Below, piece by piece: positions 342 to 16,247 of a DNA stretch of 20,131 bases (position 1 is its first letter; each line of letters opens with the position of its first letter). The translations under genes were made by a program, and so were the position numbers. The DNA lies in the IMG/VR virus record IMGVR_UViG_3300044675_002467, positions 1-20,131 of that record; one strand, 5' to 3'. The notes beneath the pieces were generated by a model. The model did not search any database and was not told the origin of the DNA. It worked only from the letters and a program-made list of their open reading frames with translations. Source of the DNA: a virus.

Positions 342-482
342 ATGAAGAAGATTGATCTATCAGTTGCAGTTGAAGTTGTGGGCGTAACGCTTGCAACAAC
401 TGGGCTTGCAATGATTTCAGTGCCGCTAGCTTTAATTGTTGCAGGTATTTTTTTGGTATGGATAACAGAGAAGGCTAACTAA
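342..482 (+). CDS. Small membrane protein between terminase and portal (46 aa)
   Basis: This short gene starts at ATG 342, six bases after a GGGAG ribosome-binding site that begins right at the terminase stop. It ends in TAA, overlapping the portal ATG by one base (TAATG). The product starts MKKIDLSVAVEVV and is mostly hydrophobic from about residue 8 to 41, enough for one long or two short membrane segments, with a charged ITEKAN tail. Its tight fit between two certain genes argues that it is real. I do not recognise a family. Small hydrophobic proteins of unknown role are common at this position in actinophages (general knowledge). No function is proposed. Confidence 0.7.
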   Translation: MKKIDLSVAVEVVGVTLATTGLAMISVPLALIVAGIFLVWITEKAN

Positions 483-1876
483 TGAGTTTATCAAAGCGTT
501 TGGCAGGTTCAGGCAATAAGCGTTCAGCAAACAATCAATACATAGAGCCACTGATTCCTGGCCGCCCAGCGTTTAGTTCAATTGCTGGAGTAGTCGTAGA
601 TTCTGAATCTGCTATTCGTATGTCCACTGTTTATTCTTGTGTGCGCCTATTGGCAGATGCAACATCATCACTACCTGTTGGCGCTTATGTGCGCCGTGGT
701 CGTAACCGCTTGCCTTACTCAGTTATCTACGGCGATCAACCAAATTGGATTGCCCGCCCAAATCCTGAAACAACACGCCTTGAGTTTTATGAGCAAATTG
801 TTACTTCACTCAAACTTGAGGGCAACGCTTACATTCTTACAGTTCGCGATGATATGGGCGATGTTCAAGAGTTATATGTAATTGACCCACGCAATGTGCG
901 CATCGAACGCTTAGGGCCAGGTGAGCCATTAGTTTATTTTGTAAAAATTAAAGACTCACAAGGTTTTTATGAGCAACGCCTGACAGACAAAGAAGTTTTA
1001 CACATCCCTGATTTCCGCCTACCAGGTCAGCGCTACGGCCTCAGCCCAATTGCGGCTTGCCGTACAACACTTGGCGCAGCGATGGCAGCAGATGTTTATG
1101 CCGCTTCATATTTTGGCAATGCAGCCAACCCTGGCGGTGTGATTGAAGTGCCAGGTGAGTTAACTGAAGAACAGGCATCAGACATTGGCCGCGATTGGAA
1201 CCTCACCCACACTGGCCCATACCGCGCAGGCAAGATCGGTATTCTTTCAGGCGGTGCTTCTTTCAAGCCGCTACAAATCAACGCACAAGATGCGCAGTTG
1301 TTAGATACTCGCCGTTTCTCAGTTGAAGAAATTGCTCGTATTTTCCGCGTTCCACTATCGCTACTTGGTCATCCAGTAGCGGGTGCAATGTCATTTGCAT
1401 CAGTTGAAGCCCAAAACCTTTCATTTGTTCAGCACTCATTGCGCCCAATCTTGGAGCGAATTGAACAATCACTTTCAACATTGCTGCCTGAACCTGATGG
1501 ATTCATTCGCTTTAACCTTGATGCGCTGCTACGCGGTACAACAATTGAGCGCTACGATGCTTACACAAAGGGATTGCGTGAAGGATTCCTTTCACTCAAC
1601 GATGTTCACGCTTACGAAGATATGGCACCAATTGAAAATGGCGATCAGTACCGTGTGCCACTACAAAACATTGATGCAACAGATGCCAAGGATGTTGGCC
1701 TCAAGCTACGCACCGAAATTGCTGCAGCATTGATTCAGGTCGGCTTTGACCCAGCGGCAGTTACAAAGGCAGTTGGTTTGCCTGATATGAAGCACACTGG
1801 TTTGCCTTCAAGTCAATTGCAACAGATTTCAACAATTGACCCAGCCGACCCAACATCTGTTTATGAGGTTGAGTAA
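482..1876 (+). CDS. Portal protein, HK97-type
   Basis: This 464-residue protein has the expected length and features of the HK97-type portal family, the dodecameric ring at the capsid vertex through which DNA is packaged and ejected. Visible family features are an early STVYSCVRLLADATSSLPV helix (about residues 48-66), a LEFYEQIVTSLKLEGNAYI stretch around residues 100-118, a GLSPIAACRTTLGAA clip/stem region near 190, and an RFSVEEIARIFRVPLSLLG segment near 280. The ATG overlaps the preceding stop by one base, and its own stop overlaps the protease ATG by one base, so the three genes are probably translationally coupled. The last 60 residues are poorly conserved in type and end EVE. Confidence 0.93.
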   Translation: MSLSKRLAGSGNKRSANNQYIEPLIPGRPAFSSIAGVVVDSESAIRMSTVYSCVRLLADATSSLPVGAYVRRGRNRLPYSVIYGDQPNWIARPNPETTRLEFYEQIVTSLKLEGNAYILTVRDDMGDVQELYVIDPRNVRIERLGPGEPLVYFVKIKDSQGFYEQRLTDKEVLHIPDFRLPGQRYGLSPIAACRTTLGAAMAADVYAASYFGNAANPGGVIEVPGELTEEQASDIGRDWNLTHTGPYRAGKIGILSGGASFKPLQINAQDAQLLDTRRFSVEEIARIFRVPLSLLGHPVAGAMSFASVEAQNLSFVQHSLRPILERIEQSLSTLLPEPDGFIRFNLDALLRGTTIERYDAYTKGLREGFLSLNDVHAYEDMAPIENGDQYRVPLQNIDATDAKDVGLKLRTEIAAALIQVGFDPAAVTKAVGLPDMKHTGLPSSQLQQISTIDPADPTSVYEVE

Positions 1877-3188: not shown

Positions 3189-3275
3189 TCGAAGTCGGAG
3201 CAAATCCCACACCCTAAAAGCGCCGTGGAGAGCATTGCCACCACCTCAAACAATTACAAACTCATTGGAGAAATA

Positions 3276-4628
3276 ATGTCAAAGTCATATCTTGATGTTG
3301 CTCTTGAGCGCCGTGATGCAGTTAAGGCAGAAATGGATGCAGTTCTTGAGGCAGTAGCCGCAGAATCACGCACCGACCTTACTGCAGAGGAAACCGAAAA
3401 GGTTGATGCTCTCGTAGAAGAAGCACGCGCACTAGATGCAAAGATCGAAAAGTTCACAACACAGGCAGCAGCAGATGCAAAGGTTGCAGAAATGCGTTCA
3501 TCAGTTGCAGCAGTTGTTGCACCAAAGGTAGGCGGAGCAATCGTTACACGCGAAGCACGCACATACTCACCTGAAGCTGGCGTTTCATTCGTAAAGGATG
3601 TTTTCAACGCACAGGTTCGTGGTGACTACAACGCACAAGAGCGTTTAGCACGCCACACAAAGGAAGAATCAATCGAGCGCCGTGATGTTGATACATCAAA
3701 CTTCGCTGGATTAGTTGTTCCACAATACTTGGTTGACCTAGCAGCACCTTATGCTCGCGCAGGCCGCCCAACTGCAGACTTTGCAACTGCAAAGCACACA
3801 CTTCCAGTAGCAGGTATGTCACTAGAGATTTCTCGCATGACAACTGGAACATCAACTGCAGTTCAGGAAACACAGAACACTGCAGTATCAGAAACTGATG
3901 CTGACGATACACTGCTCAGTGTGCCAGTGCGCACGATTGCGGGCCAGCAAGACCTATCCCGACAGGCGATTGAAAGAGGAACAGGCATTGACACATTCGT
4001 TGTTGCTGACCTAATCCGTTCATGGCACACAACAGTTGATGCTCAGGTTCTCAATGGAACAGGCAACAACGGACAGTTCAAGGGTATCCGTAACTCAGGT
4101 GGAAACGCAGTAACATTTACTGCAACAACACCAACAGTTGCACTTCTATATCCAAAGTTGGCTGATGCAATTCAAAAGATTCAGTCAAATGTGTTTGAGA
4201 CACCAACACACTGGATTATGCACCCACGCCGCCTAGCTTTCTTGCTAGCAGCGACAGATTCAACAGGCCGCCCACTTGTAGTTCCAAATGCACAAGGACC
4301 AATGAACGGTTCAGCAGCAGGCGCAGGCGCAGCAGGATACGGCAACTCAGGTTACTCAATGATGGGCTTGCCAATCATTGCTGATGCAAATGTTGGAACA
4401 ACATACGGAGCAGCAACAAATCAGGATGAAATCTACTGCGTAGCAGCACCTGAAATGCACCTATGGGAGCAGCCAGGTTCACCATTCGCATTATCATTTG
4501 ATGCAACTGGTGCTTCATCTCTAACAATCAAATCTGTTGTGTACGGCTTCGGTGCGTTCACTGCAGAGCGTTACCCACTAGCAGCCTCAATTATTTCAGG
4601 CACTGGTTTGGTAGCACCAACTTTCTAA
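3276..4628 (+). CDS. Major capsid protein, HK97 fold, with N-terminal delta-like scaffold domain
   Basis: The likely start is ATG 3276, preceded by TTGGAG at proper spacing. An in-frame GTG at 3225 would add 17 residues with no good ribosome-binding site. The product is 450 residues. Residues 1-90 are highly charged and helical (ERRDAVKAEMDAVLE, TEETEK-like segments), as in the delta scaffold domain that the protease removes. From about residue 95 the shell domain follows: TYSPEAGVSFVKDVF, VPQYLVDLAAPYARAGRP, ETDADDTLLSVPVRTIAGQQDLSRQ, THWIMHPRRLAFLLA and GLPIIADANV, all typical of the family. Codon use is strongly biased (Ala mostly GCA, Asn mostly AAC), as expected for the most highly expressed virion gene. 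It is followed by a strong terminator. Confidence 0.95.
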   Translation: MSKSYLDVALERRDAVKAEMDAVLEAVAAESRTDLTAEETEKVDALVEEARALDAKIEKFTTQAAADAKVAEMRSSVAAVVAPKVGGAIVTREARTYSPEAGVSFVKDVFNAQVRGDYNAQERLARHTKEESIERRDVDTSNFAGLVVPQYLVDLAAPYARAGRPTADFATAKHTLPVAGMSLEISRMTTGTSTAVQETQNTAVSETDADDTLLSVPVRTIAGQQDLSRQAIERGTGIDTFVVADLIRSWHTTVDAQVLNGTGNNGQFKGIRNSGGNAVTFTATTPTVALLYPKLADAIQKIQSNVFETPTHWIMHPRRLAFLLAATDSTGRPLVVPNAQGPMNGSAAGAGAAGYGNSGYSMMGLPIIADANVGTTYGAATNQDEIYCVAAPEMHLWEQPGSPFALSFDATGASSLTIKSVVYGFGAFTAERYPLAASIISGTGLVAPTF

Positions 4629-6503: not shown

Positions 6504-6665
6504 ATGAGCTACATAGTCACATCGGATGTATTCACACCGAAGAAAAAGGGTGAGTCAATCACCGAAAAAGAATTGCTTGAACTTGGCCTCAACATTGATG
6601 CCTTAGTTGCAGGCGAATATCTAAAAAACACCGCAGCAATCAAACCAGTAGAGGAAGTAAAATAA
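6504..6665 (+). CDS. Small protein of unknown function before tail tube genes (53 aa)
   Basis: The start is ATG 6504, seven bases after the AAGGAG ribosome-binding site. A longer frame upstream overlaps the preceding gene and lacks such a site. The product begins MSYIVTSDVFTPKKKGESITEKELLELGLN and is charged, with a helical middle and no membrane segment. Its stop overlaps the tail tube ATG by one base. Short proteins at this spot are frequent in actinophages, and a tail-related accessory role is only guessed from position. Confidence 0.7.
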   Translation: MSYIVTSDVFTPKKKGESITEKELLELGLNIDALVAGEYLKNTAAIKPVEEVK

Positions 6666-7087
6666 TGCCACGCATAGTATTAACAGATGTGTCAGTTACA
6701 GTAAATGCTATTGATCTCAGCCAATTTTTAACTAGCGTTACACTTTCAACAAGTGTAGATGTTGTTGAAACAACAGGAATGGGAAGCGCAGCAGCAAAAA
6801 CTCGTTTGCCAGGATTGAAAGATAACTCTGTAACGCTAGAATTCAATCAAGATTTTGCAGCAGCAGGGCCTGAAATAACAATCAATGCAGTTGGTTCATC
6901 ACTTGTTGGAACATCAGTTCCTATTGTAATCAAGCCATCATCAGGTGCAGTCAGTGCAACGAACCCTTCATATTCCTTCACTGCGGTTTGCAGCGAGTGG
7001 CAAAATGTTCAGGGCAGCGTTGGTGAACTAAGTACCATTTCTGCAACTTGGCCAATCTCAGGCGCAATTACAAAAGCCGTTTCATAA
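6665..7087 (+). CDS. Major tail (tube) protein, copy 1
   Basis: The 140-residue product is beta-rich, starts MPRIVLTDVSVTVNAIDLSQFL and contains DNSVTLEFNQDF, IVIKPSSGAVSATNPSYSF and SEWQNVQGSVGELSTISATWPISG. This resembles the small tail tube proteins of actinophages, which stack as hexameric rings. It is clearly related along its whole length to the next gene, which shares the same blocks in the same order. It lies just upstream of the tail chaperone, the usual place for the tail tube gene. Start overlaps the preceding stop by one base. The ribosome-binding site is GAGGAAG. Confidence 0.8.
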   Translation: MPRIVLTDVSVTVNAIDLSQFLTSVTLSTSVDVVETTGMGSAAAKTRLPGLKDNSVTLEFNQDFAAAGPEITINAVGSSLVGTSVPIVIKPSSGAVSATNPSYSFTAVCSEWQNVQGSVGELSTISATWPISGAITKAVS

Positions 7088-7513
7088 ATGCCACGCCTTG
7101 TTCTCAATAACGCCTATGTGCTATTTGCAAGCAACGATATTTCGGAGTTTGTGACACAGATAGAATTGAAAACAAGCGTGGATACAATTGACACAACCCA
7201 AATTGGCGCACAATCAAGAACGCGCCAGGCTGGAGTGTTTGATAATTCTGTGACTTTTCAGTTCAATCAAGATTATGCCGACAATGCCCTTGAAGAACTT
7301 GTCAATGGTACTTCAATGGCAAACACGACAGTTGGAACTGCAGTTGCAATGCAGATCAGGCCAGTAAATGCACCAGTAAGTGCGAGCAATCCAAAATACA
7401 CATTCAATGCAGTTATCACCGAATGGCAATCTGTATCTGGTGAATTAGGAAGCCTTAGCACTGTTCAGGTTTCTTGGCCAATTTCAGGTAATATAACAAA
7501 ATCAATCACATAA
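7088..7513 (+). CDS. Major tail (tube) protein, copy 2 (tandem paralogue)
   Basis: This 141-residue protein starts immediately after the stop of copy 1 (TAAATG). It repeats its layout: MPRLVLNNAYVLFASNDISEF at the start, a TSVDTIDTT match to TSVDVVETT, DNSVTFQFNQDY, IRPVNAPVSASNPKYTF, and EWQSVSGELGSLSTVQVSWPISGNITKS at the end. Copy 1 and copy 2 therefore come from a gene duplication. Both lengths are intact and no stop or frameshift is seen, so both are probably used. Copy 1 or copy 2 could form the tube while the other forms a terminal or decorating ring; the sequence alone does not decide. Confidence 0.8.
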   Translation: MPRLVLNNAYVLFASNDISEFVTQIELKTSVDTIDTTQIGAQSRTRQAGVFDNSVTFQFNQDYADNALEELVNGTSMANTTVGTAVAMQIRPVNAPVSASNPKYTFNAVITEWQSVSGELGSLSTVQVSWPISGNITKSIT

Positions 7514-7527
7514 ACTAGGGGGAAAAG

Positions 7528-7806
7528 ATGGATGGATTATCAATTAAGTTAAAAACAACTGATGGTGTTGAGGCCTCTTACAAACTAACGCCTCGCATCA
7601 TTGTTGCATTTGAACAAAACTTTGGTGGGGGAATGCCTAAGTTGCTGGGCGAAGGGCAAAAAGTAGAATATATCTATTGGCTTGCCTGGAAAGCGTTGCA
7701 GACAAACGGCCATGTTGTAAAAGTTTTTGGGCCTGAATTCTTAGATACTCTTGTTAGCGCCGAATTGGATGCTGATGAATCTTTCGAATCCACCGCAACA
7801 GCCTAA
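7528..7806 (+). CDS. Tail assembly chaperone, short form (gpG-like)
   Basis: The 92-residue product follows GGGGGAAAAG at good spacing and starts MDGLSIKLKTTDGVEASYKLTPRI. It has the position and general form of the tail assembly chaperone that coats the tape measure protein during tail assembly: between tail tube and tape measure genes, helical, with an acidic C-terminus (LDADESFEST). In many siphoviruses a fraction of ribosomes change frame near the end of this gene to make a longer protein. Here a conserved-looking reading frame follows in the -1 frame, listed separately. The chaperone call rests on position, size and that pattern. Confidence 0.75.
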   Translation: MDGLSIKLKTTDGVEASYKLTPRIIVAFEQNFGGGMPKLLGEGQKVEYIYWLAWKALQTNGHVVKVFGPEFLDTLVSAELDADESFESTATA

Positions 7807-7931
7807 CTTATACGATTGCAGCCGTTGCGGTTGAAACAGGTATTCCAATCAGTGATTTGCTTGATGCGCCTGAAGGTATGCTTGAAGCAATCACTATCTA
7901 CATGAAGGAACGAGCTAAAGCCAATGGCTGA
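7779..7931 (+). CDS. Tail assembly chaperone, -1 frame extension (gpGT-like)
   Basis: The -1 frame relative to the upstream gene is open from 7779 to the TGA at 7929-7931 and has no start codon near its beginning. It encodes LTYTIAAVAVETGIPISDLL then DAPEGMLEAITIYMKERAKAN, which matches the helical T-domain pattern of chaperone extensions (an A-x-A-x-E-T-G-I turn, then a second helix). The best-looking slip point is TTC at 7783-7785, whose tRNA re-pairs with TTT one base back. A classic X-XXY-YYZ heptamer is absent. Slipping there gives a fusion of about 134 residues, reading ESF then RIHRNSL. The frame ends 8 bases inside the next gene. Confidence 0.7.
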   Translation: MFRIHRNSLTYTIAAVAVETGIPISDLLDAPEGMLEAITIYMKERAKANG

Positions 7932-9960: not shown

Positions 9961-11087
9961 CCGCATTTGATGGAATCACAACGCCTGCAGTAACAGTGCA
10001 ATTCTTAAAAAGTGGTTCATTTGTCACAGTTGCAACCAGTGATGTAATCAGCATAAACATTCGCCGTGGCCGAACACGCCAAAGTGAGCGCGATCAATGC
10101 GGCACTGCCGATATTATTCTCAACAATTTCAGCGGTATCTATAACCCTGATAATACCGATGCAAGTAACCCTTATGTTGTCAGCGGTGTAAACATCCTGC
10201 GTGATGGTTTGCAAATGCGCATTGTGGCTACAATCGGCGGTACCGCATACAACCTTTACTACGGCTTTTTGGAAATTACACGGGTTGATCAAGGCGAAGC
10301 CCCAGCGGTAACAATGACATTTGTTGATGGCATTGCCTACATCGCCGATGCCCAGGCACCAGCACTAGCCGCTGCCGCGAACGCTGAAACCGCAGCCACT
10401 CGCGTTGGCCGTATGTTAGACATTGTGGGCTGGCCAAGTGGCGGTTCACGCTCACTAACAGGTTCAGTGGGGATGCTGGCTACAGTGCAGAATCGCTCTT
10501 GTATGGCATTGATTTACCAGGCAGTTGATGCCATCGCTGGCCGTTTCTATATCTCACGCAATAATGTTGCAACCCTTGTGCCTCTTGCTGACAAGTTCTC
10601 ACGCCCAACCCAATTGCTTTTCACTGATACAGGTGCAAGCAACACTGTTGGCTATATGGAGTTATTCACCAACCCTGGCACTTATTATGTTGTGAATCAG
10701 GCAGTGGTTGATCGTGGCAATGCAAACAAGCAATACACATCAACCTATAACCCAAGCAAAAACTCATACGGTATTGCTAAGGCAGTTTTTGATGCACCTG
10801 TTGCAACCGATAGTAATGCTCAAAATTTAGCCTTATACGAATCACGCAAATTGGCTGACCCGCTTACCTATGTTGAGCGCATTGATTTTAACGCACTGGC
10901 AGTTGGCGATTATGGTGCCTTGTACCCTGACTTTCTATCAACTGAACTTGGCGATCAGGTAAGCGTTGTGCGCTCAGGTGTGCAATACAACCTAGTTGTT
11001 GAAGGTATGGCGTTTGTAATCGTGCAAAACAATTGGATGATGAGCTACACCACTTCAGCCATTAACCCTTACAGTATTACCATCTAG
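9957..11087 (+). CDS. Minor tail protein, tail-tip hub / distal tail-like
   Basis: The 376-residue protein follows the tape measure with a 4-base ATGA overlap. It opens with a beta domain containing ISINIRRGRTRQSERDQCGTADIIL and FSGIYNPDNTDASNPY, a pattern common in actinophage tail-tip proteins, where the R-G-R-T plus N-x-x-G-x-Y-x-P elements recur. The middle has VGRMLDIVGWPSG and QAVDAIAGRFYISRNN, and the C-terminus LGDQVSVVRSGVQYNLVVEGMAF, which resembles the hub fold of phage tail proteins (gp27-like). It probably caps the tube and holds the fibres. The fold assignment is by resemblance only. Confidence 0.75.
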   Translation: MTAFDGITTPAVTVQFLKSGSFVTVATSDVISINIRRGRTRQSERDQCGTADIILNNFSGIYNPDNTDASNPYVVSGVNILRDGLQMRIVATIGGTAYNLYYGFLEITRVDQGEAPAVTMTFVDGIAYIADAQAPALAAAANAETAATRVGRMLDIVGWPSGGSRSLTGSVGMLATVQNRSCMALIYQAVDAIAGRFYISRNNVATLVPLADKFSRPTQLLFTDTGASNTVGYMELFTNPGTYYVVNQAVVDRGNANKQYTSTYNPSKNSYGIAKAVFDAPVATDSNAQNLALYESRKLADPLTYVERIDFNALAVGDYGALYPDFLSTELGDQVSVVRSGVQYNLVVEGMAFVIVQNNWMMSYTTSAINPYSITI

Positions 11088-11095
11088 GGGGAACA

Positions 11096-12427
11096 ATGCC
11101 TTTATGCCCGCAGATCACTAACACGCCAATCACAGTTTCATTGACTGCAGATTACACAGTTACCAATGTGTTGCCAGTTCTTCCTGCAAATACTGAACAA
11201 CTAGCAGCAACTGATGCAAATGTTGCAGCGGCGGTGGCAACGGCAAATGCGGCAGCAGCAACTGCAGGAACTGCTCAAAGCACTGCCAATACCGCCCTTG
11301 CCAATGCAGCAACTGCATACAATGCCGCAATCGGCTCGCTTCAGCCAAGTGCCAGCACCATTGTTAATGCCAGCAATCAAATGACTGCAATAGCAGCCAA
11401 CGGCATTACAGTTTATTCAGGTGCATCTTCATCAAGCGGTGCGCGTGTAGTAATGAACTCTGTTGGCCTTGCTGGTTACGATGCTTCAAACAATGCAACT
11501 TTTTCAATTACTGCATCAACAGGAGCCGCAGTATTTTCAGGTTCAGTTACTGGCGCAACCATTACTGGCGGAACTCTTAATATTGCTGGTAATGCCATCA
11601 TCAATTCAAGTGGTTTATTGACTGCAACAGGTGCCACTATAACTGGCACGATCAATGCAACCGCAGGCTATTTTGGAACTGTAAGCAATGGATTCTCAAT
11701 TAACTCAACAGGTTTGGTTGGCGTTGGTAGCGGAATCATTGTTGGCGGAACAATCACCACTAGCTCAGGTTCAAACTCAGTATCTTTGGTTGGCTCAAGC
11801 AACTCATTAACATTCAAAAATGGCGGCAGCAATGTAGGCCATATTGTTCCACTCTCAAGCAATGGTGTGATTATGCACTACGGCGCAACCGCCGATGGTT
11901 CAGGTGGAACATTCCCGCAAATGTTCGTTGGTTCTGCAAATGCTTCAATGTCTGCCAGTTCAACACATAGCGTTGGTGTTTCAACATCAATTGGAATTAA
12001 CTTAACTGCATCAACTGGTGGCATCAATCTCAATAGCCAAACCAACTACCCAGGGATTGCAACGGGTGCTGGTAGCACAATGGTTGTTGTTACTACAGGT
12101 TCCCGTATTGCTTACACAACATCATCTGAACGCTTCAAGCAAGATATCCAATACATTGCAAGCCCAGGATGGCTTGATAAGGTAATGGCGATGAAGCCAA
12201 TCACCTACAAAACAAGTGAAGATTTTACAATTGAAGGTGAGCCAAATGAAACACAGTATGGTTTCCTGGCTGAAGATATTTATGATTTGGGTGGCGGTTT
12301 AGAAAAAGCCGTAGTTCTCGACCCACTAGGCGAGCCTTTCTCACTTTCATATGATCGTTTAACTGTATTTCTAACGCTTGCAATCAAGGAACTCAAAGCT
12401 GAAATAGATCAACTCAAGGGGGAATAA
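11096..12427 (+). CDS. Tail fibre/spike with C-terminal S74 intramolecular chaperone domain
   Basis: The 443-residue protein starts after TAGGGGGAACA. Residues 40-85 are Ala-rich and probably coiled coil; residues 95-340 are Gly/Ser/Thr-rich repeats (GATITGG, INSTGL, GTITTSSG) that suggest a beta-helical trimeric shaft. From residue 343 on, SSERFKQDIQYI, then ITYKTSED, TQYGFLAEDIYDL, SLSYDRLTVFLTLAIKELK match the S74 peptidase domain. In that family the Ser of the S-x-x-R-x-K motif cleaves the chain just before itself, with the Lys as partner, after the domain has helped the fibre trimerise. The motif here is intact, so self-cleavage near residue 343 is expected. The last bases overlap a small coiled-coil gene by one base. 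Confidence 0.88.
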   Translation: MPLCPQITNTPITVSLTADYTVTNVLPVLPANTEQLAATDANVAAAVATANAAAATAGTAQSTANTALANAATAYNAAIGSLQPSASTIVNASNQMTAIAANGITVYSGASSSSGARVVMNSVGLAGYDASNNATFSITASTGAAVFSGSVTGATITGGTLNIAGNAIINSSGLLTATGATITGTINATAGYFGTVSNGFSINSTGLVGVGSGIIVGGTITTSSGSNSVSLVGSSNSLTFKNGGSNVGHIVPLSSNGVIMHYGATADGSGGTFPQMFVGSANASMSASSTHSVGVSTSIGINLTASTGGINLNSQTNYPGIATGAGSTMVVVTTGSRIAYTTSSERFKQDIQYIASPGWLDKVMAMKPITYKTSEDFTIEGEPNETQYGFLAEDIYDLGGGLEKAVVLDPLGEPFSLSYDRLTVFLTLAIKELKAEIDQLKGE

Positions 12428-13455: not shown

Positions 13456-13803
13456 ATGGCGGCAGGTACCTTAGATTTTACGATTGAACAAGGGGCAACT
13501 TTCAATCTTCTTTTAACTTGGAAAATTAACAATGTTGCAGTCAACCTCACTGGTTACACTGCTCGCCTACAAGCACGCGTTGATGTTGAAGATACTGAAA
13601 CAATACTGAGCCTAACAACTGCAAATGGTGGCATCACACTTGGCGGCGTACTTGGCACAATTAGCCTAGATCAAACTGCCATTCAAACAACACTTTTGCC
13701 ACCAGGCACTTATGTTTATGATCTTGAATTGATTGCCTCCAATGCAACAGTTACCCGCCTTGTGCAAGGTGAGCTACTCATCAGCGCAGAGGTGACACGA
13801 TGA
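13456..13803 (+). CDS. LtfC/BppU-like beta-sandwich tail protein
   Basis: The 115-residue product starts after TTTGGAGC and has [17 protein letters not shown], then [15 protein letters not shown], then a [18 protein letters not shown] turn, and a final [34 protein letters not shown]-like region (about residues 82-115). This is the pattern of the small beta-sandwich domain found at the N-terminus of baseplate upper proteins and in stand-alone tail proteins of many phages. It probably links fibres to the tail tip. Its stop overlaps the collagen-like fibre gene by four bases (ATGA), so the two are likely coupled and may work together. Confidence 0.75.
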
Positions 13804-15917
13804 GTTCAATCGTCTATGTATCCTCAAGCACCACCGATGTAATTGCTGAAATTGCAAGCCCTGCCGAAGTTATTATTTCAAACCTACAAGGTCCACAAGG
13901 CGTTGCAGGTCCTACTGGCCCGACAGGTCCAGCGGGTGCAACTGGTGCAACAGGTGTAACTGGACCTGTAGGTGTCACTGGTCCAGTCGGTGCTAGCGGT
14001 GCTACAGGTGCAACTGGTCCTATCGGTGTCACTGGTCCTATCGGTGTCACTGGCCCAATCGGTGTAACTGGTCCAATCGGTGCAACAGGTCCTCAAGGTA
14101 TTCAAGGAATCCAGGGTGAGATTGGTGTAACTGGTCCAATTGGTGCAACTGGTCCACAAGGAATTCAAGGTGTAGTTGGCGCAACAGGTTCAACTGGCGT
14201 TACAGGTCCACAAGGTATTCAAGGTGATGTTGGTGCAACTGGCCCAGTAGGTGCAACAGGTCCTCAAGGTATTGTTGGTGCAACTGGTGCTACAGGACCC
14301 GCAGGTTCAACAGGGCCAACAGGCGCTGATTCAACAGTGCCAGGGCCAACAGGTGCAACGGGTGTGATCGGTGCTACTGGGGCAACTGGCCCTATCGGTG
14401 CCACTGGCGTTGCTGGTCCAACAGGTGCAACAGGTGCAAGCGGTCCAGCAGGTGCCAATGGTGGTTCAGCAACAATCTTTGAATATGCAGCCGATACATC
14501 TTCAACAACAGGCAAACCAGGTGCGGGCGATATTCGTTGGGGCAATGCAACACAAATTAACTCAACTCGAATCAACATAGATCACATTGACGATAATGGC
14601 GATGATATTGATTTCTTGCTTGCCTTACTTAAAGCAAATGATTTTATTATTATTCAAGATCGAGATGTTAACAATAACTTTCAAAAGTTCTTAGTTACAG
14701 GTGCGCCAGTATTGCAAACTGGTTATGTAGAATTGCCAGTTGTCATTGATTCATCAGGTGGCACTGGCACAACTAACTTTTCAAACTTTCAATTGCTTGC
14801 ACTCGTTACAATTGCAACTGGTTTAACTGGTGCAACTGGCGCTACTGGCCCCGCAGGTGCAACTGGGCCAATCGGAGCTACTGGAAACACAGGTCCAACT
14901 GGACCTATCGGTGCTACTGGTGCAAGCGGTGCTGATTCAATTGTTGCTGGCCCTACTGGTCCAACTGGACCAATCGGTGCCACTGGAGCTGCTGGTGCAA
15001 GCGGTGCAAATGGTGCAGATGGTGCAACAGGTGCAACTGGACCTGCAGGAACTGCGGGCGCGACAGGTGCTACTGGTCCTCAAGGTATTCAAGGCGTTGT
15101 AGGTGCAACTGGACCTGCAGGTGCAACAGGTGCTACTGGACCGCAAGGAATTCAAGGCATCCAAGGTAATGTTGGCGTTACTGGACCTGTTGGTGCCACT
15201 GGTGTTGCTGGCGCGGTTGGTGCAACAGGTGCAACAGGGCCAGCGGGAACCAATGGCGCAGTTGGTGCTACAGGCGCAACTGGCGTAACTGGCGCAACTG
15301 GGCCTGAAGGTATTGTTGCTCAAACAACGGCACCAACAAATACTGATGTGCTTTGGCTTGACACTGATGAACCTGCAGTTGCTGCAACTACACCGCCAGT
15401 GACTCAAATGGTAACTGGTCAGCATTATTTCTCAGGTACTGCATTTAGTATTGCCTCACAAAGTGTCAATTTCACATACTACATTCCATTTTATGTGCCT
15501 TACACAACAACATTTGATCGGATTGCATTGATGACGGCCTCAACATTTGTGGGAACGGGTGCTGTTCGTCTTGGAATCTACAACAACACAAATGGAGCGC
15601 CATCAACGGTTTTACTTGATGCGGGAATAGTGGCAACAACTGCTGCCTCAACAATTTACACAATCACCATCAGTCAAAGTTTGAGTGCAGGTGTTTATTT
15701 CTTGGCAGCAAATTCAACAACTGCCGCGACAACAAACACTTTTAATTCATACACGGCAGTCTCTGGGATGATTCCAAATAATTCAACTGGAACCACATCA
15801 GGTAGTTTTAATCGTGGGTTTTCTCAGTTTGTAAATGTCACATCAGGATTTGCAACCGCCGTGAGTCCATCATTTAGCAACGCCTCTCTTTACGGCGTAT
15901 CTTTAAGGAGTGCATAA
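13800..15917 (+). CDS. Collagen-like tail fibre with two collagen blocks
   Basis: The 705-residue protein has: a short N-terminal attachment part (1-30); a Gly-X-Y block (31-222) rich in [12 protein letters not shown] and GIQ triplets; a non-collagen domain (223-340; [28 protein letters not shown]); a second block (341-504); and a C-terminal beta-rich domain (505-705; [31 protein letters not shown]) ending LYGVSLRSA, which may bind the host. Trimeric collagen-like shafts are common in phage fibres. Each block is interrupted once by GADS-(T/I)-V-(P/A)-GPTG. Thr often fills the third triplet position, a possible glycosylation site as in bacterial collagen-like proteins. No S74 domain is present. 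Confidence 0.88.
13890..14465 (+). repeat. Collagen-type Gly-X-Y repeat block 1
   Basis: A 9-base period coding Gly-X-Y triplets runs across residues 31-222 of the fibre, with a break at [11 protein letters not shown]. At 14016-14080 an 18-base unit coding GPIGVT is repeated three times, varying mainly at silent positions, a sign of recent expansion or slippage. Confidence 0.9.
14820..15311 (+). repeat. Collagen-type Gly-X-Y repeat block 2
   Basis: The second 9-base-period block codes residues 341-504 of the same fibre, with the matching break [11 protein letters not shown] near residues 377-387. It shares GPQGIQG and GATGPAG units with block 1, so the two blocks likely came from one duplication or recombine. 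Confidence 0.9.
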
Positions 15918-15918
15918 A

Positions 15919-16020
15919 ATGCAAATAATTACTTATGGACTTGGTGGCTACGATCAAAGCAAGCCCAACGACAACATCATTGAAATTATTGATATACCTG
16001 ATGAGGAAGTGACTGAATAA
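15919..16020 (+). CDS. Small acidic protein between collagen-like genes (33 aa)
   Basis: A 33-codon gene starts two bases after the fibre stop, with AAGGAG 9 bases upstream of the ATG, and ends in TAATG overlap with the next collagen-like gene. Product begins [19 protein letters not shown] and ends in an acidic IPDEEVTE. The exact fit between two genes and the good ribosome-binding site support it. No family is recognised; an II-T-x-G-x-GG start is seen in other tiny phage tail-region proteins as far as I recall. Confidence 0.6.
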
Positions 16021-16247
16021 TGGCACAACTAAAATACTGGGATGGCAGTGCCTGGGTTACGGCAATTGTTGGAGCGCAAGGTGAAACTGGCCCACAAGGT
16101 TTAACGGGTGCAACTGGACCTACAGGTGCCACTGGCCCAGTCGGAGCCACTGGCCCAGTCGGTCCTACAGGAACGACAGGTGCCACGGGCGCGACAGGTG
16201 CCACTGGCCCATCAGACTTTACAATGGTATTTATGGGTGCCTATTAA
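16020..16247 (+). CDS. Short collagen-like tail protein (75 aa)
   Basis: The 75-residue product begins [20 protein letters not shown], a beta element that often precedes collagen stretches in phage fibre proteins, then has about 16 Gly-X-Y triplets ([19 protein letters not shown] in part) from residues 18 to 64, and ends [12 protein letters not shown]. It is far shorter than the 705-residue fibre but uses the same Thr-rich triplets. It could form a thin spike, or an accessory chain that joins the same collagen trimer. The start overlaps the 33-aa gene stop by one base (TAATG). Confidence 0.75.

Follow-up and report, generated by a model that had tools for sequence, protein, structure and literature searches.

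A probable programmed -1 frameshift at a non-heptameric site, followed by a conserved stem-loop, in the putative tail assembly chaperone gene of an uncultured phage

Introduction

Conserved frameshifts in phage tail genes were reportedly the subject of a 2004 paper in Molecular Cell, and the slip site of phage lambda is the classic heptamer G_GGA_AAG. Frameshifting of lambda G/GT is described in an excerpt of PMC5009743, which lists relaxed P-site triplets (X_XX: G_GU, G_GA, G_UU, C_CA, and U_CC) as forms lying between a complete heptamer and the simpler sites. According to the excerpted text of PMC10885494, the authors of PRFect, whose slip motifs come from SEA-PHAGES tail chaperones, state that the motif XXXYYY is missing from most annotated frameshift overlaps in their set of phages. 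The usual spacer between slip site and downstream structure is given as 5–9 nt in PMC7618472. Among titles and the opening lines of abstracts, no paper on the frameshift of the phage group studied here was found.

The DNA analyzed here, referred to as the window, is a 20,131-base IMG/VR virus record with a tailed-phage structural operon. It resembles the lambda G/GT region in having a short G open reading frame after a major tail protein gene and a T domain in the -1 frame. As in lambda (PMC5009743, excerpt), the fusion would be expected from a minority of ribosomes. The kind of frameshift is well known, but the slip site of the window is not of textbook form: it reads A_TCT_TTC in place of the classic heptamer of lambda. 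Further differences from lambda are a covarying 3' stem-loop and a gene for 185 amino acids that separates T from the putative tape measure gene. We consider it very probable, judging from sequence comparison, that a lambda-type programmed -1 frameshift at the non-heptameric TCT_TTC, aided by the stem-loop, yields both G and a G-T fusion. In this way one gene would supply two tail assembly chaperones, G alone with 92 amino acids and a G-T fusion with 134.

Materials and methods

Relatives were collected in six scans of viral contigs, which returned at least 465 loci; many are the same contig met repeatedly, and the collection is a sample, with further relatives existing beyond those fetched. 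The working set comprised 468 sequences, the window having been added to 467 loci; these include the window's own place (L081) and the cultured phage phiPsal1 (L467). Homology of G was assessed by tblastn at E 1e-4, by which 459 of the 468 matched; three were truncated at the beginning of the contig. When the first 430 nt were compared, 185 sequences were distinct. Six were excluded because they run into a contig end or have an interrupted zero frame (L068, L072, L164, L333, L361, and L377), and the usable set consisted of 178 distinct sequences, window included, plus phiPsal1. In the alignment used, the G frame of L164 meets a stop at codon 5, reflecting either a broken gene or an assembly error. 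For counts at the slip site, one sequence was kept for each of the 127 distinct 75-nt slip regions (window included).

One fetch used the slip motif TTTCGAATCCACCGCAAC. Only L199 of the 178 sequences and none of the 127 slip regions depend on that fetch, so that a recount without the motif-fetched loci leaves the class counts standing. More distant relatives were retrieved with a pattern or a profile placed in G, independently of the slip site. A scan of genome contigs for relatives gave 37 candidates and no true relative. The letter patterns of the PRFect motifs were derived from the motif names. Covariation was evaluated on an alignment (A4) of 98 of the 100 sequences that share the window's stem register, L172 and L212 being left out.

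Results and discussion

Gene context and the putative function of G

The coordinates of the features discussed are collected in Table 1.

Table 1. Features of the window at and around the candidate frameshift
Feature	Positions	Strand	Basis or remark
Portal gene	482-1876		Pfam match
Capsid gene	3225-4628		Pfam match
Two tandem major tail protein genes	6665-7087, 7088-7513		PHROG 4574 matches
G open reading frame (zero frame), putative tail assembly chaperone G, 92 aa	7528..7806	+	ORF call, relatives, gene position
T frame, -1 relative to G	7779..7931	+	Open 7779-7928, stop TGA 7929-7931
Position of C_CCA_AAT in relatives	7776..7782	+	Window reads T_GAA_TCT
Candidate slip site A_TCT_TTC	7779..7785	+	P-site TCT, A-site TTC; TTC would re-pair to TTT
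Spacer GAATCC	7786..7791	+	6 nt from TTC to unbroken stem (7792); 3 nt to first pair (7789)
Stem-loop, 5' arm TCCACCGCAAC	7789..7799	+	Covarying positions 7794, 7796, 7797, 7799
Stem-loop, 3' arm GTTGCGGTTGA	7824..7834	+	Mismatch at 7832 in window
Inner pairs 7801-7822 and 7802-7821, loop between	7801..7822	+	
Next gene, 185 aa	7924..8481	+	8-nt overlap with end of T frame

G lies directly after the two major tail protein genes, and the 185-aa gene stands between T and a 492-aa gene. The latter is called a putative tape measure gene by its position only, its single PHROG match being without function. No match for the 185-aa gene was found in PHROG or Pfam at E 0.1, nor did G match any family there at this threshold, tail chaperones included. 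The AlphaFold model of G has a mean pLDDT of 79.7. With this model, Foldseek retrieved 14 viral proteins at E<=0.001, all uncharacterized or unnamed, and no solved structure from the PDB at E 0.001; a named tail assembly chaperone appeared only at E 0.17. A sequence search of the PDB gave weak unrelated matches only, and tblastn against cultured phages gave nothing for the window's fusion at E 1 or for a T consensus at E 10. We infer that G is a tail assembly chaperone from gene order, from the G/T layout, and from the gene order in phiPsal1.

Reading frames in the window and in its relatives

The G frame runs from the ATG at 7528 to the TAA at 7804-7806. The -1 frame is closed immediately before T by TGA codons at 7773-7775 and 7776-7778 and then encodes IFRIHRNSLTYTIAAVAVETGIPISDLLDAPEGMLEAITIYMKERAKANG. 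A preliminary description of this DNA, made from the letters alone, had stated that the open -1 stretch begins at 7779 and that the frame past the 7806 stop has no start of its own. Both statements agree with the codons present, as the earliest ATG, GTG, or TTG of the T frame is the TTG at 7857, and none is found near the overlap with G. Its further statement that the slip falls within 7779-7806 is right for the codons read in -1 after the slip, but a tandem slip could start one codon earlier.

The same layout was observed throughout the relatives. The zero-frame ORF ends at 92, 93, or 97 amino acids in all 178 distinct usable sequences, and in all of them the -1 frame extends 125–137 nt past the first base of the G stop, in line with the earlier description of a widely conserved frameshift. 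The first open -1 codon lies at the position of 7779 in 84/178 sequences and later in none. Two findings had been named beforehand as speaking against a frameshift, an in-frame G-T fusion in relatives and a separate start codon for the downstream frame; the former occurs in 0/178 sequences, and no start codon of that frame is common to all 127 slip regions. From +5 to +110 the first, second, and third codon positions of the -1 frame (n=127) have entropies of 0.57, 0.285, and 1.362 bits, i.e. the -1 frame evolves under protein-like constraint. The relatives inspected retain the -1 residues [FL]R[IV]HR[NDE]SL despite residue changes in the zero frame (GAA to GTA, GCA, or GGA; TTC to TCC or TCA).

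These observations bear on two explanations in which no fusion is made by frameshifting. T might be a separate small protein whose translation begins at a non-standard start, either independently of G or coupled to it. The G stop does overlap the T frame, and 96/127 slip regions have a start-type codon in the -1 frame no later than 45 nt past the stop, but the positions of these codons are scattered, the commonest (GTG at +26) is present in only 62/127, the window has none before 7857, and the -1 frame conserves RIHR, a segment lying ahead of such starts, while zero-frame residues change. A separate T seems highly improbable to us. The -1 frame could also be a remnant or the product of an assembly indel; a single window taken alone could well contain an indel, but a layout common to 178/178 sequences and the protein-like constraint on the -1 frame make this scarcely conceivable.

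The slip site

An X_XXY_YYZ heptamer was sought at 7773-7808 of the window and is absent, as are the eight backward slip motifs of PRFect. The preliminary description had reported the lack of a classic heptamer, which is correct for the window. In 42/127 slip regions of the family the textbook heptamer C_CCA_AAT stands in frame one codon upstream of TCT_TTC. Relatives of this kind in IMG/VR (L334, L335, L397, L434, and others) have a homologous G/T, the same stem-loop, and the same -1 relation, and differ by C_CCA_AAT. The family as a whole is therefore not non-canonical, whereas the window's branch is. A further 11/127 slip regions carry C_CCT_TCY at the upstream position, and 74/127 have no C_CC[A/T] site, two of these having T_CCT_TCT. 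The window's A_TCT_TTC is found in 12/127 and a T_TCT_TTC group accounts for 58/127, neither of which fits the eight backward PRFect motifs; AAATTCC, a form of the PRFect motif 'threetwotwo', occurs in 24/127.

The codon at 7783-7785 follows these classes. It is TTC in 74/74 slip regions without the upstream Pro-type site, as against 8/53 with it (106/106 and 13/72, respectively, over all 178 sequences). In the presence of the upstream site, TCC, TCA, and TTA are also found. In our reading, the codon would be read only in -1, as F or L, in the class with the upstream site, and TTC itself would be the slip codon in the class without it, where it must re-pair to TTT. The window, with T_GAA_TCT at the upstream position, belongs to the latter class; as judged from the codons, T_GAA_TCT offers no plausible re-pairing. 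The slip from TTC (7783-7785) to TTT that had been favored at the outset thereby gains support from the sequences. In the closest relatives the region is nearly frozen as TCT TTC GAR TCC ACC GCA ACA G.

Two other ideas about this region were abandoned. That poor P-site re-pairing demands TTC in the A site fits 17/17 sequences versus 65/110, which is not significant on the tree and is better explained by the classes with and without the upstream site. A stimulator resembling a Shine-Dalgarno sequence (GGAG, GAGG, or AGGA) upstream of the slip codons was rejected, being present in only 4/178 sequences.

The downstream stem-loop

A stem-loop downstream of the slip site, an element that the preliminary description does not mention, is present in some form in 127/127 distinct slip regions. 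The register of the window fits best in 100/127. In the other 27 the 3' arm is shifted 6 nt upstream, and 13 of the 14 positions 7790-7803 are paired in 27/27; a 3-nt register shift, tried on these 27, was found in none. On the quick tree the stem register needs nine changes, which points to errors in the tree, to recombination, or to a register that switches easily.

On alignment A4, 91.2% of cells pair, compared to 82.9 +/- 0.6% after shuffling (0/500 shuffles as high) and 35–53% in slid registers. Cells changed on both sides number 102 versus 40 in shuffles, and further pair types number 9, which is not above shuffles (mean 10.0). Two pairs, the third (7791-7832) and the eleventh (7799-7824), fail in 36 and 39 of the 98 sequences. 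With the shifted-arm sequences set apart, RNAalifold returned the same stem, with changes on both sides in 4 of 11 pairs; on 140 pooled 102-nt regions with mixed registers it gave almost no consensus structure (-0.19 kcal/mol). The clearest case is pair 7794-7829, which is C-G in 72 and A-U in 28 of the 100 sequences, with no exception. In the -1 frame, position 7829 is a four-fold degenerate wobble base, closing an Ala or Ser codon; on the tree each side changes three times, and so does the pair. Positions 7796 and 7827 pair in 97/100, and their coupled change alters residues in both frames. An Rfam search gave no match.

The hairpin is among the best 1% of the 46-nt windows of its own locus in 90/127 cases and among the best 5% in 111/127. 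When the 3' side was recoded synonymously, <=5% of recodings folded as well in 99/127 (median 0.7%). The window has a weak hairpin (-14.8 kcal/mol, z -1.9): 5.8% of the windows of its own locus and 13% of synonymous recodings fold as well. The eight T_GAA_TCT_TTC sequences are weak-stemmed as a class, with a median of 13% of recodings as good.

A pseudoknot between the loop and the 3' flank is not supported. In a first look with one shuffle, the longest helix measured 6 in 67/140 sequences versus 29/140 shuffled ones, and >=7 in 7 versus 21. With 60 shuffles the mean longest helix was 5.40 versus 5.36 (range 5.14–5.51). The likeness of TTCGAATCC to the tRNA T-loop consensus was set aside as a coincidence; ARAGORN finds no tRNA in the window, and the likeness is lost in relatives with GTATCC or GCATCC.

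Spacing and the two classes of slip site

The foot of the stem differs between the classes. Pair 7791-7832 is intact in 52/53 slip regions with the upstream Pro-type site and in 10/74 without it, and the lowest stem pairs are intact in 42/42 C_CCA_AAT slip regions, where the distance from AAT to the stem is 6 nt. According to this pattern, the solid stem starts 6 nt after the proposed slip pair both in the C_CCA_AAT class and in the window's clade. Such spacing is compatible with a slip site located one codon downstream at constant spacer length; the shifted-arm class (27 sequences, stem starting 4 nt after TTC and not 6) and the 10 exceptions deviate from it. On raw counts the associations of class with the stem pair and with codon TTC have Fisher values of 5e-24 and 2e-26, but since only four changes of the upstream site, five of the stem pair, and seven of codon TTC lie behind them on a quick tree, and since the two to four supported independent pairs for class patterns and covariation cannot reach significance, the associations are suggestive and not proven.

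Proposed mechanism and alternatives

In the window, the ribosome would slip while TCT and TTC occupy its P and A sites, respectively. The Phe-tRNA would shift from TTC to TTT, and the Ser-tRNA would re-pair poorly (TCT to ATC). The stem-loop, its solid part 6 nt downstream of TTC, would hold the ribosome at the slip site. A fusion made by slipping ribosomes should read '...DADES F RIHR...', the junction ESF-RIHR being the best prediction. Many related phages would slip one codon upstream at C_CCA_AAT, likewise 6 nt before a stem that has three more continuous base pairs at its foot. The frame layout, its conservation, the covarying stem, and the class-wise codon pattern are visible in the sequences themselves; from these we infer the slipping, its exact place, the tRNA pairings, and a stimulating role of the stem.

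Whether N_UCU_UUC is the slip site of a large group of uncultured phages, one codon away from the position of C_CCA_AAT in sister phages, with little but the Phe codon re-pairing well and with the hairpin foot opened to re-set the distance, appears to us evenly balanced. Viral sites with an imperfect P-site triplet (PMC5009743, excerpt) appear to keep a re-pairing A-site codon, as the window does; N_UCU_UUC is not in the list of imperfect triplets in that excerpt, and the first base of the window's site (A) also fails to pair.

A -1 frameshift might also proceed by slipping of a single tRNA at another step, either on TCT alone as the P-site codon, or once TTC has reached the P site and GAA occupies the A site. 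In relatives with C_CCT_TCC_TTA or C_CCT_TCC_TCA the codon that follows TCC would be unable to re-pair in -1, as read from the codons, so that slipping in those relatives must depend on codons before it; a P-site TTC, for its part, re-pairs well to TTT. With GAA in the A site, however, the stem would abut the A site with zero spacer, and a slip on TCT alone would exchange TCT for ATC, a poor re-pairing, with the preceding base being A, T, C, or G among relatives. On balance we find a single-tRNA slip unlikely. A different doubt concerns the hairpin, which might be a by-product of overlapping coding (a conserved TCCACCG versus conserved Ala-Val-Glu codons) and stimulate nothing even though the frameshift is real. 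Six of the 13 stem pairs are invariant, independent changes are few, and the window's hairpin is weak, as such an origin would allow. The coupled changes at the four-fold wobble base 7829, the re-registered 3' arm in 27/127 slip regions, and the small share of synonymous recodings (<=5%) that fold as well in 99/127 speak against it, and we hold a by-product hairpin to be distinctly unlikely. The preferred reading continues to be a slip on TCT_TTC aided by the stem-loop.

If a large group of phages does slip at N_UCU_UUC with a re-set distance to the hairpin, the family would represent a natural evolutionary series in which a frameshift signal migrates, and the window would hold a -1 site outside X_XXY_YYZ that software based on slip motifs misses. 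The 127 aligned natural variants, which are alike in protein context and have the hairpin in common, could be used to work out the tRNA re-pairings and spacer lengths required for -1 frameshifting in bacteria. Annotation by homology, combining the G frame, the T frame, and the stem, would be a way to G-T fusions in uncultured phages and, as is suggested, in phiPsal1.

The cultured relative phiPsal1 and further observations

By tblastn, a divergent G (L345) reaches one cultured phage, phiPsal1 (MG835450), at 25.9% identity and E 4e-3. Its gene phiPsal1_016 is a distant homologue of G, and the -1 frame behind it encodes a T-like domain, which by eye we judge to be akin to the T domain described here. 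The gene order is tail tube, G, one gene, and 'tape measure'. In place of the window's A_TCT_TTC, phiPsal1 has a slip run of seven A (A_AAA_AAA) directly before the G stop. The T-like -1 frame is unannotated (L467 3240-3380; MG835450, about 11056-11196), and a strong hairpin (-24.2 kcal/mol) is predicted after it.

Matches of the head proteins to cultured phages point in two directions. The capsid protein matched 57 mycobacteriophages (35–37% among the matches listed), its best matches being phages such as Cracklewink, Bipper, and Courthouse. The best match of the portal protein among 2132 records is Pontimonas phage phiPsal1 (38%). The head module is perhaps a mosaic, and an actinobacterial host in fresh water would be a guess from these distant matches.

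The two major tail protein genes are paralogous, with 46% identity over 142 columns, and two kinds of subunit may make up the tail tube. In the distal part of the operon, two ORFs (13800-15917 and 16020-16247) contain long collagen-like G-P-T/G-A-T repeats and are perhaps tail fibre genes.
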